Below, one piece after another: positions 819-58,162 of a DNA stretch of 64,000 nt. Position numbers and translations under genes: made by a program. The notes under the pieces are model-generated. The model was not told the DNA's origin. It worked only from the letters and a program-made list of their open reading frames with translations, and searched no databases. The stretch spans positions 1-64,000 of the forward strand of contig JAIRPK010000001.1 of NCBI GenBank assembly GCA_031257015.1, written 5' to 3'. Position 1 is the stretch's first letter; each line of letters opens with the position of its first letter. Source of the stretch: Tannerellaceae bacterium. GTDB lineage: Bacteria; Bacteroidota; Bacteroidia; Bacteroidales; Tannerellaceae.

Positions 819-903
819 CGCCCAGTCGACGAACCGCCAACCCACGAGTTGGCGCACCGCAAACCGGCGAGTTGGCACACCGCCAACCCGTGAGTTGGCG
901 ACA
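819..903. repeat. Three 23-bp palindromic tandem repeats
   Basis: The units are 23 nt long. The first and third hold perfect 7-bp inverted repeats, CGCCAAC-n6-GTTGGCG, at 835-854 and 881-900; the middle unit is an imperfect version. A more degenerate unit precedes them from about 819. They could form DNA or RNA hairpins. There is no poly-T next to them, so they do not look like simple terminators. Confidence 0.8.
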
Positions 904-10609: not shown

Positions 10610-11640
10610 CCGGAAATGCCGGGACACTTTGTCACATGTCAAAACAATGAAAGGAAGGCGAAAAGACATAAAGTCGCGAAACATCAATCTTCAAACACTC
10701 CCACTAATACCGACAGCCTCCAACATTCATTACACCGTATCAACCGGCAGATGCAATACAAAGAACATGGCTCCCCTGCCCTGTTCGGGGACTTCAACGA
10801 CGTCCGGCTTTCTGTTCATTTCACATCCGTTATTAATCATGATTTATAACAAAATGCTCATCCCGATTTGCAGGAAGCCTTTGCAATAATCACAAAGTCT
10901 GTCCGAAAATGCCGGAACACTTTGTCACATGTCAAAACAATGAAAGGAAGGCGAAAAGGCATAAAGTCGCGAAACATCAATCTTCAAACACTCCCACTAA
11001 TGCCGACAGCCTCCAACATTCATAACCGCGTACCAACCGGCAGATGCAATACAAAGAACATGGCTCCCCTGCCATGTTCGGGGACTTCAACGACGTCCGG
11101 CTTACGGTTCATTTTACACCTGCAATTCATCATGATTTACGACAAAATGCTCATCCCGGTTCGCCGAAAGCCTTTGTCAGAGATCAAAACCTTCACGGAA
11201 ACCTGGAAAATGGTTTTGTCATAGATCATGACCGTTTCCGGGACTTGGAAAACGGTTTTGTCGTAGATCATGACCATTCCCGGAAACCGGAAAATGCTTT
11301 TGTCGTAGATCATGACCATTCCAGAAAACTGGAAAATGCTTTTGTCATAGATCAAAACCATTCCCGGAACCTGGAAAATGGTCTTGTCATAGATCAAAAC
11401 CATTCTCGGAAACCGAAAAACGGTTTTGTCATAGATCATGACCATTTTCTGAACCTGAATGATGGTTTTGTCATAAAACATGGCTAATCGCGGCTGCAAA
11501 ATGAACCGAAAGTCGAACGCCTTCGTGTTCCCTGAAAATGAGAGGATAACCGCGTGCCCGGCGCTGCATTTGCCAGCCTGTTCGGGATTATGAATGTTGC
11601 AGGTCTTCGACATCCGGTGTAACGTGGAATTATTCATGCT
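10610..11640. repeat. Compound repeat element: two direct arms, a 42-bp array, one inverted arm
   Basis: The region lies between the divergent genes ribD and DUF2007. Two direct copies of a unit of about 274 bp (10610-10883 and 10903-11176) align without gaps at a 293-bp offset. They run into an array of 42-bp units (11163-11486). On the far side, about 11487-11640, the same arm recurs in inverted orientation: its reverse complement shares CAACATTCATAATCCCG and TTTATGACAAAAC with the related locus at 34.2 kb. The array is thus bracketed by inverted arms, like a transposon skeleton but with no transposase. Both strands show long open frames, which follow from the period being a multiple of three. 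Confidence 0.85.
11163..11486. repeat. 42-bp tandem array, seven units and a partial one
   Basis: Full units start at 11163, 11205, 11247, 11289, 11331, 11373 and 11415 with no indels; a partial unit ends with TTTTGTCATAAAACATGG. Each unit holds TTTTGTCATAGATCAT or a close variant, with an inner dyad GTCAT-AGATC-ATGAC and outer arms around GGAAAATGGT and ACCATTCCC, so each can fold back on itself. Variation among units is by substitution only. Confidence 0.9.
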
Positions 11641-11796
11641 GCATGACGCCGTATATTCACGGTTGAAATTGAGTATCACGTTCGCCGGCAAAATCCCCAT
11701 TCCCAATTCCCCATAGCCGGCTTCCAATCACAAGCTCCTCATGGCATTTTCCAAATATTCTTTTTATTTTTACACACCATAATAAAAAATACGAAT

Positions 11797-12057
11797 ATGA
11801 ATCTAAACGAAGAACGAATAGTCGAAATAGCCCGCTTTACTCATCCATCCGCCGCACAGATACTTGTAACCATTCTCCAGTCCGAAGGCATCAACTGTTA
11901 TTTACGCAATGCTTTTTCCTCCCAGATTCTCGGCGGCTACGCCGACATTGGCGGCAGTCGCCTCGAAGTGTTGGAGAGCGACAGCGCACGTGCGATAGAA
12001 ATCGCCCAGGACAGCGGCTACGGAAAATACCTTATCCGGCACGACGATGGACATTGA
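11797..12057 (+). CDS. DUF2007 family small protein
   Basis: An 86-residue protein matching the DUF2007 (putative signal-transducing protein) layout: an N-terminal strand IVEIARFTHPSAAQILVTILQSEGI that resembles PII-like folds, then LRN and a C-terminal DSARAIEIAQDSGY. No catalytic motif is visible. Its last 11 bases overlap the start of the kinase-RapZ gene, so the two are translationally coupled. Function is unknown. Confidence 0.8.
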   Translation: MNLNEERIVEIARFTHPSAAQILVTILQSEGINCYLRNAFSSQILGGYADIGGSRLEVLESDSARAIEIAQDSGYGKYLIRHDDGH

Positions 12058-13480
12058 AGCATTAAGCAATCTCTACCGCCTCCACACAAGCACGAACGCC
12101 GACAATGTCAAAGAACTCCCCTTCTCCGGTTCCAACCGCAGATACTTTCGCATCATGGGCGCCGGCGGCAGTTTGATAGGCGTTAACGGCACCTCGGCTG
12201 ATGAGAACAAAGCCTTCATCTACCTGGCGCGTCACTTTCGTAATAAAGGCCTCCCCGTGCCCGAAATATTCATCCACACGGACAATCTGCTCTCCTATCT
12301 GCAAGAAGATCTGGGCGACACACTCCTCTTCGACGCCATATCCAAGGGGAGGAAGAGCCACGTTTTCGACGAGCGCGAACGCATGTTATTGCGCAAAACG
12401 ATCGCCATTCTCCCTTCCATTCAGGTGAGCGGCGCAGAGGGCCTCAACTTCAACTGCTGCTACCCGCAGACGGAATTTAACCAGCGCACGGTTCTCTGGG
12501 ATTTGAATTACTTCAAATACTGCTTCCTCAAAGCCGTCGAGCTGGAGTTTCAGGAAGACCGGCTGGAGGACGACTTCCAGCGCATGCGCGACGAATTGTT
12601 GACAGAGCCAGCCGCGACCTTCTTCTACCGCGACTTCCAATCCCGCAACGTCATGATCAAGGATGAATCGCCATGGTTTATAGACTTTCAGGGCGGACGC
12701 CGCGGCCCGATATACTACGACGTAGCCTCGTTCCTCTGGCAAGCCAAAGCCAACTTCACCGACGAGCTTCGTAACGAACTCATAGAGGAATACATCCTTT
12801 CGCTGAACAAATTCATGCCGATCGACGGGAATAAATTCCGCCGTCGCTTGCGCCATTTCGTACTCTTCCGCATCCTCCAGACTCTCGGCGCCTACGGGTT
12901 CCGCGGCTACTTCGAGAAAAAGCCCCACTTCATACAAAGCGTGCCTTACGCGATTAAGAACCTCCGTTCGTTGCTGCGCGAGGAGTTCGCCGAATATCCC
13001 TACCTGTGCTCGCTATTAACCGAGCTTGTCAACCTGAAGCAATTCGCCGACGATTTGCAGAAAAATACATTAGAGATCAAGGTCATCAGTTTCGCCTACA
13101 AGAAAGGAATCCCTGAAGATTCTACCGGCAACGGCGGCGGCTTCGTCTTCGACTGTCGCGCGATTAATAATCCAGGCAAATACGAATGGTATCACCCGTT
13201 CACGGGCTTGGACGAACCCGTCATAAGGTTCTTGGAGGACGACGGCGAGATCACCCAGTTCCTCGAACACGTCTATACACTCGTCGGCGCGACCGTTCGC
13301 CGCTATTTAGACCGCGGATTCACCAATCTTATGGTCAGCTTCGGCTGCACAGGCGGTCAGCACCGCTCAGTGTATTCCGCCCAGCACCTGGCGGAGCATT
13401 TGCACGCCAACTTCGGCGTAAAAATTCATTTGGTACACAGAGAACAAAACGTAGAACAAATATTTGACTCTATAATATGA
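12047..13480 (+). CDS. APH-fold sugar kinase fused to a RapZ C-terminal domain
   Basis: 477 residues. Residues 1-335 form an aminoglycoside-phosphotransferase-like kinase: YRDFQSRN (Asp196 as catalytic base) and IDFQGG (Asp213 as metal ligand). Residues about 343-477 match the C-terminal domain of RapZ, including VISFAYKKGIP, FVFDCRAINNP, TGLDEPV and the hallmark GCTGGQHRSVY. In E. coli that domain binds glucosamine-6-phosphate. The gene overlaps a MurU-like nucleotidyltransferase by 4 bases, the pairing known for AmgK/MurU, which convert MurNAc to UDP-MurNAc in wall recycling. I infer an amino-sugar anomeric kinase; the added domain may sense or bind an amino sugar phosphate. The substrate is not proven by sequence. 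Confidence 0.8.
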   Translation: MDIEALSNLYRLHTSTNADNVKELPFSGSNRRYFRIMGAGGSLIGVNGTSADENKAFIYLARHFRNKGLPVPEIFIHTDNLLSYLQEDLGDTLLFDAISKGRKSHVFDERERMLLRKTIAILPSIQVSGAEGLNFNCCYPQTEFNQRTVLWDLNYFKYCFLKAVELEFQEDRLEDDFQRMRDELLTEPAATFFYRDFQSRNVMIKDESPWFIDFQGGRRGPIYYDVASFLWQAKANFTDELRNELIEEYILSLNKFMPIDGNKFRRRLRHFVLFRILQTLGAYGFRGYFEKKPHFIQSVPYAIKNLRSLLREEFAEYPYLCSLLTELVNLKQFADDLQKNTLEIKVISFAYKKGIPEDSTGNGGGFVFDCRAINNPGKYEWYHPFTGLDEPVIRFLEDDGEITQFLEHVYTLVGATVRRYLDRGFTNLMVSFGCTGGQHRSVYSAQHLAEHLHANFGVKIHLVHREQNVEQIFDSII

Positions 13481-25191: not shown

Positions 25192-27642
<2,451 letters not shown>

Positions 27643-27798: not shown

Positions 27799-29601
27799 AT
27801 GAATCCTTATACACAGCAATTCAGTAAAGCCAATTTACTGAAAACAGCAGACCACCACTCAACAAACGACGCTCCCCCCCTCATCGGCATATCCGCCAAT
27901 CACAGCGACGGACAATCCTGCATAAAAGACATATACGTCCAATCTGTGCTCATTGCCGGCGGTGCGCCAGTGCTCATCCCCGTCATAACCGACATTCAAG
28001 CCCTCAATGCAATTGTTGCCCGTCTGGACGGAATACTGTTTAGCGGCGGCGGCGACCTCAATCCCTTAATTTTTGGCGAAGAGCCTGTCCCAGAGCTTCA
28101 GGATGTTGACCCATTCCGCGACGAATACGACCTGAAGCTCCTGCACCTCGCCTTTGAGCGGCAAATCCCTATCCTGGGTATATGCCGCGGCCACCAGTTA
28201 ATCAATGCAGCTTTCGGCGGCACGCTTTACCAAGACATACATTCTCAGCACAATCAACCGTCATTAAAGCATAGCCAGAATATGGCACGGGAATTTCCCT
28301 CACATACAGTGACGCTCCCCGTCGAATCTCGCCTTCGCTCCATTATTCAAGGCGACAAGCTATGCGTAAACTCCATCCACCACCAGGCCGTTAAAGACCT
28401 CGCCCCCGGATTCATTGCAACAGCCATATCCCCCGACGGTATAAACGAAGCGCTGGAGCATCCCGAATATTCTATTCTCAGCGTCCAGTGGCATCCCGAA
28501 GGAATGGCGCCAAAAGGGAACCCTCAAATGCTCTCAATTTTCCGCCACCTCGTACAGGAAGCAACACTATTTGCCGAAGCAAAGAGAATCCACCGCGAAA
28601 TAGTAACCATCGACATGCACACTGACGTCCCTATGATATATTCAGGCGACTTCGACATATCGAAACGAATCGGCGGAACATTCAATCCTCCCTTCACCGA
28701 AAGCAAAGTCAACCTCCCCCTAATGGAGGCAGGAATGTTGGACGCTACATTCATGGCCGCTTATATTCCCCAAAAAGAACGTACCGAAGACGGATACGCC
28801 GCCTCATGGAAACGAACTCTCAAAAAACTTACTCAGCTTGCCCGTCAAGAACAAATCAATCCCGCCCAAGTAGGAATCGCCAAAACGGCAGAAGATCTGT
28901 TACGCCTTAAAAAAGAAGGACGTAAATCCATCTTTCTCTGCGTAGAAAACGGCTATGCAATAGGTAAAGACATTGAACGCATAGCAATCTTAAAGCAAGC
29001 CGGCGTTTCATACATCACTCTCTGCCACAACGGCGACAATGACATCTGCGACTCCTCCGCCGGCAATCAGGAATGGAACGGTCTAAGCCCCTTTGGAAGT
29101 GAAGTCGTACACGAAATGAATCGTCAGGGAATAATTATTGACGTATCTCACGCCTCCGAAGCAACTGTTTCAGCCGTTCTCAAAGAAAGTTGCGCCCCCA
29201 TCATCGCATCCCATTCCTCCGCACGCACCCTCTGCAATCACCGCCGCAACCTAAATGACGAACAGATAAAAGCCATCGCCGAAAAAGGCGGCCTTATATG
29301 CGTATGCCTCTACACCTCATTCATCAAAGAAAACAGCGGCGGAACAGGATCCCCCGAAGCCACCCTGAGCGAAGCCATCCGCCACATTAACCATATTGTT
29401 AACCTGGTCGGAATAGACCACGTCGGGATTGGCTCCGACTTCGACGGCGGCGGCGAATTAATTGGCTGCAAGTCATCAAACGAATTAATAAACATAACCG
29501 TTCGCCTACTAAAAGAAAGCTACTCTCAAGATGCTCTGCGCAAACTATGGGGAGGAAATCTCCTCCGCGTAATGCAAACCGTCCAGGCCCTGGCCAGATA
29601 A
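27799..29601 (+). CDS. Fused C26 gamma-glutamyl hydrolase and M19 dipeptidase, cytoplasmic copy
   Basis: 600 residues with two catalytic domains. Residues 25-250 are a class-I glutamine-amidotransferase-like peptidase C26 (PuuD family): nucleophile Cys129 in GICRGHQLIN, and His and Glu in VQWHPEG. Residues about 258-600 are a renal-dipeptidase (M19) barrel: HTD, ENGYAIGKD, DVSHASE, SHSSART and IGSDFDGGG supply the binuclear metal site. No signal peptide is present, unlike the paralogue at 30895. The first domain should open a gamma-glutamyl bond and the second a dipeptide, so a gamma-glutamyl tripeptide could be fully degraded (inference). Confidence 0.88.
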   Translation: MNPYTQQFSKANLLKTADHHSTNDAPPLIGISANHSDGQSCIKDIYVQSVLIAGGAPVLIPVITDIQALNAIVARLDGILFSGGGDLNPLIFGEEPVPELQDVDPFRDEYDLKLLHLAFERQIPILGICRGHQLINAAFGGTLYQDIHSQHNQPSLKHSQNMAREFPSHTVTLPVESRLRSIIQGDKLCVNSIHHQAVKDLAPGFIATAISPDGINEALEHPEYSILSVQWHPEGMAPKGNPQMLSIFRHLVQEATLFAEAKRIHREIVTIDMHTDVPMIYSGDFDISKRIGGTFNPPFTESKVNLPLMEAGMLDATFMAAYIPQKERTEDGYAASWKRTLKKLTQLARQEQINPAQVGIAKTAEDLLRLKKEGRKSIFLCVENGYAIGKDIERIAILKQAGVSYITLCHNGDNDICDSSAGNQEWNGLSPFGSEVVHEMNRQGIIIDVSHASEATVSAVLKESCAPIIASHSSARTLCNHRRNLNDEQIKAIAEKGGLICVCLYTSFIKENSGGTGSPEATLSEAIRHINHIVNLVGIDHVGIGSDFDGGGELIGCKSSNELINITVRLLKESYSQDALRKLWGGNLLRVMQTVQALAR

Positions 29602-30894: not shown

Positions 30895-32730
30895 ATGCGA
30901 ACATTCATCATCATTACTCTCTCCCTCTTTTCCATTATCGCAGGCAATACGCAATCCCCCTCAACAACCATCCCCAATCTAAATAAACTCAAAGCCAGCA
31001 TTGACTCCGCCGAGACAAATCTACGTGCCAAGCGCCCTCCCCTCATCGGGATCTCCGTCACGCGCACAGCCGAGGGTAACTCCAGTCTGGGAGCCAGCTA
31101 CACCAACGCTATTCTCAAGGCCGGCGGCGCACCCGTACTCATTCCAGCCACCACCGACGGCATCGTCCTGCAACAAATTATAGAACAGCTCGACGGCATT
31201 CTCATGACCGGAGGAGAAGACATCAATCCGTTATGGTACAACGAAACCCCCATCCCACAGCTTGGAACCGTCGATCCACTCCGCGACATCTACGACATTA
31301 AACTCCTGAAATTAGCCGGCGACCGTAATATTCCCACTCTCGGCATCTGCCGCGGCATGCAAATGATAAACGTTGCCTTCGGCGGCTCTCTATACCAGGA
31401 CATTGCATCGCAACGCGAACAGAAAACCATTAAGCACGTACAGCAAATGCCTAAGGAATATCCATCTCACACCATAACCCCCATCGGCGGCACACAATTA
31501 TCCTCCATCATCGGCGAAGGCGCAAGCGGAGTAAACTCATTCCACCATCAGGCCGTAAAGACCCTCGCTCCCGGATTCCGTCCATCCGCCATTTCCTCCG
31601 ACAGCATCATCGAAGCAATCGAAGCCTGGCCAAACCACCCCATCCTCGCCGTTCAATGGCATCCGGAAGGACAGGCTGGCGGGGGCGACACAACCATGCT
31701 CAAGCTATTCTCCTTCCTCGTCGGCAAAGCCGATACATTCCGCATGGCAAAAGAAATACACCGGCGCATCCTCTCCATCGACACACATACCGACACTCCG
31801 CACCAGTTCCGCCGCCAAGGCTTCGACCTCAGCGCCAGGAAGAACAACCGCGTAAACCTCCCCAAGATGTACGAAGGCAAACTCGACGCCGTATATCTTG
31901 CAGCCTTCATCAGCCAAGGCCCACGCGACGACGCTTCACTCCTGCGGGCTGTCAGCCGGATAGATTCACTCATTGACGGCATCTACGCCCAAGTCGAGAA
32001 GAACGCCGACCTCTGCGCCATAGCCACAACCGCCGCCGATCTGTCCCGAATTAAGCAAGAAGGCAAGAAAGCCATCTTCATCGGCATCGAAAACGGCTAC
32101 GGCATAGGCAAAGACCTCGGCAACATCGCCCGCTTCAAAGCCAGAGGCGTCACATACATCACACTTTGCCATTCTTACGACAACGACATCTGCGACACCT
32201 CCACACACAGCAAAAAAGAATGGGGCGGACTAAGCCCATTCGGCGAAGAAGCAGTCCGCGAGATGAACCGCCAAGGCATCCTCGTCGATCTTTCACATGC
32301 AGCGGAAAGCACCTTTTGGGATGTGATGAAACTCACCACTGCGCCAGTTATCTGCTCCCACTCCTCCGCCCGCGCCCTGTGCAACAACGACCGCAACCTT
32401 ACCGACGATCAGTTACGCGCAGTTGCAGCCAATGGCGGCGTAGTCCAAGTTTGCCTGCTCGACGAATATATCAATCCCGATTATAAGGCCGCTGCCCTGC
32501 TTGATGCCATCGACCATATAGAACATATCGCCGGCGTCGCCGGTATTGACCATGTCGGCATCGGCAGCGACTTTGACGGCGGCGGCGGCTTTGCCGGACT
32601 TGAAGCCCATAACGACATGCTCCAAATAACCGTCAAACTGCTTGAGCGGGGATACGCCGAAGAAAACATTGCCAAAATCTGGGGCGGCAACTTCCTCCGC
32701 GTCCTCAACGCTGCATCCTCAAAAAAATAA
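30895..32730 (+). CDS. Fused C26 gamma-glutamyl hydrolase and M19 dipeptidase, exported copy
   Basis: 611 residues. It has an N-terminal signal peptide (MRTFIIITLSLFSIIAGNTQ), unlike its paralogue at 27799, so it should work in the periplasm or at the outer membrane. The C26 domain has Cys152 in GICRGMQMIN and VQWHPEG; the M19 domain has HTD, ENGYGIGKD, DLSHAAE, SHSSARA and IGSDFDGGG. All metal and nucleophile positions are intact in both domains. The two fusions are clearly homologous along their whole length, a tandem duplication with split localisation. The stop lies 3 bp before the RNase H start. Confidence 0.88.
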   Translation: MRTFIIITLSLFSIIAGNTQSPSTTIPNLNKLKASIDSAETNLRAKRPPLIGISVTRTAEGNSSLGASYTNAILKAGGAPVLIPATTDGIVLQQIIEQLDGILMTGGEDINPLWYNETPIPQLGTVDPLRDIYDIKLLKLAGDRNIPTLGICRGMQMINVAFGGSLYQDIASQREQKTIKHVQQMPKEYPSHTITPIGGTQLSSIIGEGASGVNSFHHQAVKTLAPGFRPSAISSDSIIEAIEAWPNHPILAVQWHPEGQAGGGDTTMLKLFSFLVGKADTFRMAKEIHRRILSIDTHTDTPHQFRRQGFDLSARKNNRVNLPKMYEGKLDAVYLAAFISQGPRDDASLLRAVSRIDSLIDGIYAQVEKNADLCAIATTAADLSRIKQEGKKAIFIGIENGYGIGKDLGNIARFKARGVTYITLCHSYDNDICDTSTHSKKEWGGLSPFGEEAVREMNRQGILVDLSHAAESTFWDVMKLTTAPVICSHSSARALCNNDRNLTDDQLRAVAANGGVVQVCLLDEYINPDYKAAALLDAIDHIEHIAGVAGIDHVGIGSDFDGGGGFAGLEAHNDMLQITVKLLERGYAEENIAKIWGGNFLRVLNAASSKK

Positions 32731-34156: not shown

Positions 34157-34600
34157 GTAAAAAGGCGAAGTCGCAAAACATAAACTAGCCCCAAACTTCA
34201 CCAGCGTCGAAGGCGTTCAACATTCATAATCCCGGACAATCCGGCAAGTGCAGTACATGGAACGCGACACTCCCCCGCCATCCGGGAAGAGCTAAGGCCT
34301 TCAACGTCCTGTTCATTTTCCTTTCGCCAAGACCCATATTTTATGACAAAACCTCCACCGGAAGTCGGAAAATGGTTTTGTCGTCGATCAAAACCTTCCC
34401 CGAAAGTCGGAAAATGGTTTTGTCATCGATCAAGACCATTTGACGAACTCAAAACATAGTTTTGTCATAAAACATGGAAAATAATGAGTGGAAAAAGAAG
34501 CAGATGTTGAACATCACCGACATTGGAAATAACGGATTCAAATCCATGCTGCAAGCCTTTGCCCCCTGTCCGGCCAGGCGGAATATCTTTCCCTGGAAAG
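34157..34600. repeat. Second locus of the compound repeat element
   Basis: The left arm (34157-34351) shares in order CAACATTCATAATCCCGGAC, GCAGTACATGGAACGCGACA, TTCAACGTCCTGTTCATTTT and TTTATGACAAAAC with the arms at 10.6-11.6 kb. Two full 42-bp units follow (34368-34451), then an inverted end GTTTTGTCATAAAACATGG and a diverged inverted arm whose reverse complement aligns with TTCAAC...TTC...TTTTATGACAAAAC. The organisation is the same as at the first locus, with fewer units. No believable gene lies between recO and the DUF4290 gene. Confidence 0.78.
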
Positions 34601-40105: not shown

Positions 40106-40546
40106 TCACATGTCCAGACACGTAACGAACATCTCTAGACATGTGACGAACGTCTTTAAACACGTAATGAACGTCTCTAGACATGTGACTTACGTCTTTA
40201 AACATGTAACGAACGTCTCTAGACATGTGACTTACGTCTTTAAAGACGTGAAGAACATCTCTAGACATGTGGCGAACGTCTTTAAAGATGTGAAGAACGT
40301 CTCTAGACATGTGACGAACGTCTTTAAAGACGTAATGAACATCTCTAGACATGTGGAGAACGTCTTTAAAGACGTAATGAACGTCTCTTGACATGTGGAG
40401 AACGTCTTTAAAGACGTAACGAACGTCTCTTGACATGTGACTTACGTCTTTAAAGATGTGACGAACGTCTCTAGACATGTGGAGAACGTCTTTAAAGACG
40501 TGACGAACGTCTCTTGACATGTGGAGAACGTCTTTAAACATGTAGC
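40106..40546. repeat. Alternating 21+21-bp palindromic array between DUF2490 and prs
   Basis: Twenty consecutive 21-nt half-units from 40127 to 40546 with no indel, plus a degenerate one at 40106-40126. Odd half-units carry GAACGTCTCTAGACATGTGAC-like text. Even half-units carry ACGTCTTTAAAGACGT, a perfect 16-bp palindrome, or a close variant. The odd and even types alternate strictly, giving a 42-bp period. Because of the palindromes both strands encode similar peptides (VFKDV), and the open frames of 93 and 150 codons are a by-product of the period. Confidence 0.95.
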
Positions 40547-57998: not shown

Positions 57999-58102
57999 TT
58001 TAATGTCTGTTTAATTAATTATTGTTGCTGTTGCCAGCTAAACATTTGGGATTTTCAAGTTCTTAGCGCCATGTTAGGCTCTTTAAAATAGCAAAACGAA
58101 AC

Positions 58103-58162
58103 TTTCAGAGCTAGCTCGCAAACTTCCGGAGCTAGCTCGCACGCTTCCGGAGCTAGTAATAG
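58103..58162. repeat. 21-bp palindromic repeat inside the TonB operon
   Basis: Three units of 21 nt (58103, 58124, 58145; the last partial). The first two contain GAGCTAGCTC, a perfect 10-bp palindrome, at 58108-58117 and 58129-58138. They lie in the 216-bp gap between the receptor stop and the DUF4876 start. Confidence 0.85.

Follow-up and report, generated by a model that had tools for sequence, protein, structure and literature searches.

The 64,000 nucleotides analyzed here (the window) are positions 1 to 64,000 of contig JAIRPK010000001.1 from a Tannerellaceae bacterium (GCA_031257015.1), a MAG of 3.12 Mb in 73 contigs that is 93% complete. Parabacteroides and other Bacteroidales are the closest named relatives, with 60-73% identity for the one protein compared, which is encoded beside the element. 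The element itself, at 10610-11670, lies between divergent genes: a minus-strand gene, which we take from its sequence to be ribD, and a small plus-strand gene at 11797. It consists of an array of 42-bp units bracketed by arms in inverted orientation (Table 1).

Table 1. Repeat arrays in the window and the arms that flank two of them
Feature	Positions	Strand	Remarks
Left arm, outer direct copy	10610-10883	+	92% gap-free match to 10903-11176; duplicated arrangement recurs at C49
Left arm, inner direct copy	10903-11176	+	Abuts the array; common to C49 and C33
Array, 7.2 units of 42 bp, two imperfect dyads per unit about 21 bp apart	11173-11475	+	Units co-linear and gap-free with C49 and C33
Right arm, inverted relative to left arm (about 68%)	11476-11670	-	88% to C49 right arm, 83% to C33 right arm
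Second, short family copy: left arm	34206-34346	+	Match to family arm
Second copy: 42-bp array (about 2-3 units) and right arm	34347-34512	+	
Unrelated family, 10 units; 42-bp unit of two 21-bp dyads (ACGTCTTTAAAGACGT / GTCTCTAGAC)	40108-40540		Between divergent genes
Two adjoining 21-bp arrays	25325-25550		Units differ
Short 21-bp array, GAGCTAGCTC dyad family	58099-58156		Dyad also in L061, L057 and L066
23-bp dyad array (CGCCAAC..GTTGGCG)	833-900		Family with L039 11102

An earlier note on this DNA had described two gap-free direct copies of the left arm, an array of seven units, and, beyond the array, an arm in inverted orientation; all three are present. The direct copies are 274 nt each at an offset of 293, the array keeps its register throughout, and the left-arm sequence recurs inverted at 68-69% over 118-153 bp. 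The motifs said to mark both array edges were only partly found at this copy: the right edge is exactly GTTTTGTCATAAA, but the left edge reads TTTACGACAAAAT, and in the outer left-arm copy it is TTTATAACAAAAT. The exact pair TTTATGACAAAAC / GTTTTGTCATAAA is present at the second copy, at about 34341-34475. Likewise, the 42-bp unit, which had been called palindromic, does contain dyads but is not one palindrome: the dyads are GGTTTTG..CAAAACC or GTCAT..ATGAC, plus ATTYCCGGAA..GGAAAAT. The suggestion that the direct copies reflect a recent duplication is not established; a duplicated left arm is also found at contig C49, with an offset of 252 bp. Chance is excluded as the source of the structure, since the unit core occurs 12 times in the window where 0.08 matches would be expected and the element folds strongly as single-stranded DNA (z = -4.7).

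Does the element occur elsewhere? The earlier note had staked its reading in advance on further genomic copies, to be sought by blastn. At least 10 loci of the family were found in the same genome, with no match in 40 relatives and none in plasmid or phage records; a plasmid or phage origin was rejected on the latter result. The left and right arms, about 190-220 bp, are inverted copies of each other and are shared between family loci. The copies in the window and on contigs C49 and C33 can be aligned over about 490 bp, spanning all seven units plus the right arm, without a single gap, and their arms are 76-91% identical. Hence, copying took in the entire element; the arrays did not expand independently from site to site. 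No transposase lies within the element. With at least 10 loci, inverted arms, and three gap-free full copies, the idea of a nonautonomous, transposon-like element with an array as its core has held up. The units run head-to-tail without the unique spacers of a CRISPR array, which removes that candidate, as the earlier note had seen. No target site duplication or clean terminal inverted repeat (TIR) was found at the family loci, and the outer arm ends are not sharply defined. The only DDE_Tnp_1 match in the genome is on contig C19, away from the family, and it is overlapped by no ORF that reaches 150 aa, opens with a common start codon, and closes inside the locus examined.

Other arrays lie within the window. 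The family of the array at 40108-40540 has many loci in its own genome and none in the 40 relatives. The contig start (1-620) is A/C-rich and G-poor, with weak 23/46-bp periodicity (CCCAAAAAACACCC...), and may be a decayed array or a product of the assembly edge. Separately, 29002-29455 and 32146-32587 belong to neighboring paralogous genes with 72-79% DNA identity over segments.

We counted arrays in 787 kb of the genome, chosen partly for the 42-bp armed family, and in a further 400 kb chosen regardless of it (contigs C25, C37, C2, and C11) with all periods from 12 to 60 allowed. In the 787 kb, Tandem Repeats Finder returned 117 arrays that were 60 bp or longer, nearly all intergenic. The 105 clear ones group into 18 families with several loci each and about 24 units seen at a single locus (clustering thresholds of.68-.76 against a null similarity of.42-.45), and the genome holds about 40 sequence-distinct units. 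In the held-out 400 kb, all 40 clean arrays had a period of 21-23 (18 arrays) or 41-46 (22 arrays), and none had a period of 24-40 or 47-60; five weaker arrays included periods of 14, 15, 20, and 27. Since periods of 31-32 bp (three helical turns) and 52-53 bp (five turns) are missing, the basic module is about two turns long, and units of the 41-46 class hold two such modules. A unit of this wider class carries either a single dyad, in about 21-23 bp, or two that alternate, in 41-46 bp. Shared arms are confined to families of 41-43 bp, and there appear to be two modes, armed MITE-like arrays and naked arrays.

Extrapolated from about 10 per 100 kb, the total for the genome would be some 300-310 arrays. 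Many contigs begin or end inside near-identical 21-bp arrays (for example, L035:1, L042:1, L051:1, L055 end, L061 end, L062:1, and L067:1), so the assembly probably breaks there and the number and length of arrays are underestimated. Of divergent gaps 39% hold arrays, of tandem gaps 32%, and of convergent gaps 19%, the divergent excess being weak. Tandem arrays of long units also occur outside the 21/42-bp rule, at L033 8108-9268 (390 bp), L061 1-916 (263 bp), and L034 12266-13068 (176 bp). To the right of the arrays at L028 (C45) and L026 (C46) stands a palindrome-like GGCACGAAG..TTAATT..GCTTCGTGCC, possibly a dispersed REP-like hairpin.

Within arrays, identity was.889 for dyads against.837 for linkers (p=4e-6), a difference replicated in the held-out 400 kb (.907 against.823, p=4e-4). 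Between loci of one family, dyads were 89% identical and linkers 70%; for the CAGTCG..CGACTG family the values were 100% and 59%. Compensatory double changes in the dyads were rare, and mismatches showed no excess of G.T over A.C (95:74, p=.12), which speaks against RNA hairpins kept by wobble pairing. On these two grounds, it seems to be the sequence of the dyads that is conserved rather than a fold or RNA pairing. Taken alone, 33-40% of individual units were significantly palindromic at p<.05, so most were not.

Composite stacks of arrays (L061 11141-11837, L057 9622-10081, and L066 10145-10687) contain different 21-bp cores with a similar linker. The core changes along a stack (CACCGGTG, then GAGCTAGCTC, then CGGCGCACGCGACG), whereas linker and 21-bp spacing largely persist; in L061 the first of these junctions is exactly 21 bp and the following one is irregular. 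At a junction, hybrid dyads join halves of two cores (for example, CACC to AGCTC and GAGCT to GGTG). Shared linkers may permit homologous recombination between arrays, which could explain the stacks without any function.

Arrays of 21-23 bp number 8.3 per 100 kb in this genome, 4.2-4.6 in the same genus, 2.9 in the same family, and 3.8 at named Bacteroidales loci, against 0-1.7 in other Bacteroidota and 1.0 in Escherichia coli, the control samples outside the order being small (400 kb and 100 kb). None of the few 21-23-bp matches outside Bacteroidales was palindromic. Within the order, palindromes were overrepresented among units of the 21-23 class, of which 25-27% were palindromic at p<.05, and among those of the 41-46 class, where 67% were but which comprised only 3 arrays per set; Bacteroidales arrays of other periods showed no enrichment of palindromic units. 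The pattern appears to run through the whole order. The arrays of this genome are mostly private to it. One 21-bp array is found at the same site, downstream of the next gene after 12047-13480 of the window, in three sister species (neighboring protein 93-94% identical): it has 4.6 units in one, 21.7 in another, and at least 6.6 in the third, where it reaches the sequence end; none was found at the corresponding place in the next species. Hence, unit number changes in place while the period stays constant. A comparison of orthologous slots across ribD/DUF2007 gave no information, as gene order there is not conserved.

We tentatively favor, with somewhat less than even confidence, a reading in which the 42-bp element is a MITE-like member of a wider Bacteroidales class of dyad minisatellites whose dyads are putative protein sites on a phased platform. 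A dimeric DNA-binding protein would recognize each dyad by its sequence, and spacing of about two turns would set neighboring dimers on nearly the same face of the helix. An array could then bind dimers cooperatively and act locally, near genes, as an architectural or regulatory platform. Armed families would presumably depend on a transposase supplied in trans, and slippage or unequal crossing-over would alter unit number. Several results count against this reading: periods of 22 and 23 depart from whole multiples of 10.5, most single units are not significantly palindromic, the divergent-gap excess is weak, and for the 42-bp armed family there is no target site duplication, clean TIR, Bacteroides-type promoter, or Y1 transposase to be found and just one DDE_Tnp_1 match in the genome.

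Could the arrays instead be selfish minisatellites without function? This is the main rival to an operator array, and quite possible. Palindromic units of about 21 nt would form hairpins on the lagging strand, leading to slippage by whole units and hairpin-templated correction of half-sites, and the period would be set by the hairpin or the replication machinery rather than by a protein. The private arrays and the varying unit number at one site fit this well, as do the strong single-strand folding and the half-site variants seen on both sides of the dyads in array units. It accounts less readily for dyad sequence that is kept between separate loci with few compensatory changes, or for narrow period classes across about 40 unrelated units.

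A function at the RNA level, with transcribed arrays serving as hairpin mRNA stabilizers, terminators, or small RNAs, is improbable. The element does fold as RNA (z = -3.9), and segments of BrickBuilt, a repeat element of Porphyromonas gingivalis, showed bidirectional promoter activity (PMC4596501). The dyad mismatches and scarce compensatory changes described above argue otherwise, however, and arrays are rarer in convergent gaps. Rfam gave no match in the element and only a subthreshold one elsewhere, and the Bacteroides-type -33/-7 promoter motif (TTTG..TAnnTTTG) is absent from 10 family copies. That the array encodes 14-residue protein repeats (minus-strand ORF 11137-11727, YDKTIFQVPGMVLI) is very unlikely: the unit length of 42 is a multiple of 3 and the window copy keeps the frame open, but substitutions fall evenly over codon positions (30/23/23 and 35/29/32) and the long ORF is broken in C33, so the element is noncoding, and sister families have periods of 22, 23, 41, 43, 44, and 46. 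Equally hard to credit are REP/BIME-type palindromes moved by RAYT, a Y1 transposase, for although the arrays are intergenic, palindromic, dispersed, and clustered, their periods are fixed at 21-23 and 41-46 and no PF01797 protein is present in the assembly (about 93% complete).

The earlier note knew of no named element of this type. However, BrickBuilt and MITEPgRS (MITE464) of P. gingivalis share its design (PMC4596501), and the element is real and MITE-like but of an already known kind. BrickBuilt has a 23-nt array with a leader and a tail, 19 copies, all intergenic, no internal transposase, and predicted long stem-loops; MITEPgRS has tandem repeats of 41 nt, and its flanks are repetitive as well (PMC4596501). 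Going by these published descriptions, our element resembles BrickBuilt in having a spacer-free array core within a dispersed, multicopy, intergenic element without transposase and conserved flanking segments common to its copies (here, the arms). It differs in its 42-bp two-dyad unit, its mutually inverted arms, the many families in one genome, and the lack of a GAGACCTTTGCA-type TIR at the 42-bp armed loci. Exact matches to GAGACYNTTGCA, an IS5-type TIR, occur only on contigs C25, C37, C40, and C67 and at none of those loci. The 41-nt repeats of MITEPgRS, again as published, come close to the armed 41-43-bp families, but its TIR (GAGACTGTTGCA) was not found at the 42-bp armed loci. A close form of it, GAGACTTTTGCA, lies within the unit of another 42-bp family (C40:10635-10940 and C67:490-711; 42-bp arrays at L241 1099-1531 on C40 and L242 353-807 on C67, with this sequence in the unit, resemble the IS5-family terminal repeat of P. 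gingivalis MITEs there), and its resemblance there to an IS5-type TIR may be coincidence. Repeats of 41, 23, and 22 nt are known from P. gingivalis W83 (PMC4596501), and these periods fall within the classes found here.

Two further systems invite comparison. Clustering and dispersal of intergenic palindromes recall REP/BIME with RAYT, whereas the strict two-turn spacing does not, nor does the lack of a Y1 transposase. Iteron arrays of replication origins consist of helically phased direct repeats, about 20-22 bp long, that a protein binds. The arrays here would share that repeat length, phasing, and protein binding but differ in occupying hundreds of chromosomal loci, in their many unrelated sequences, and in their dyad units. 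A literature search, mainly of papers outside subscription, found none describing an order-wide pattern. We regard it as possible, though on balance rather doubtful, that Bacteroidales carry a previously undescribed, order-wide system of dyad arrays with two-turn spacing and many specificities per genome, acting as cooperative platforms for a family of architectural or regulatory proteins.

The interest of these findings lies in the period rule and the conservation of the dyads rather than in a single element. If both hold, some Bacteroidales would carry a hidden protein-binding layer of DNA in about one-third of their longer intergenic gaps, and the two orphan elements of P. gingivalis would no longer be isolated cases but instances of something general. 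Bacteroidales are a major gut order with genetic tools, and the binding model is directly testable there. Even if nonfunctional, the arrays would be a clean case of minisatellites with a narrowly fixed unit length.
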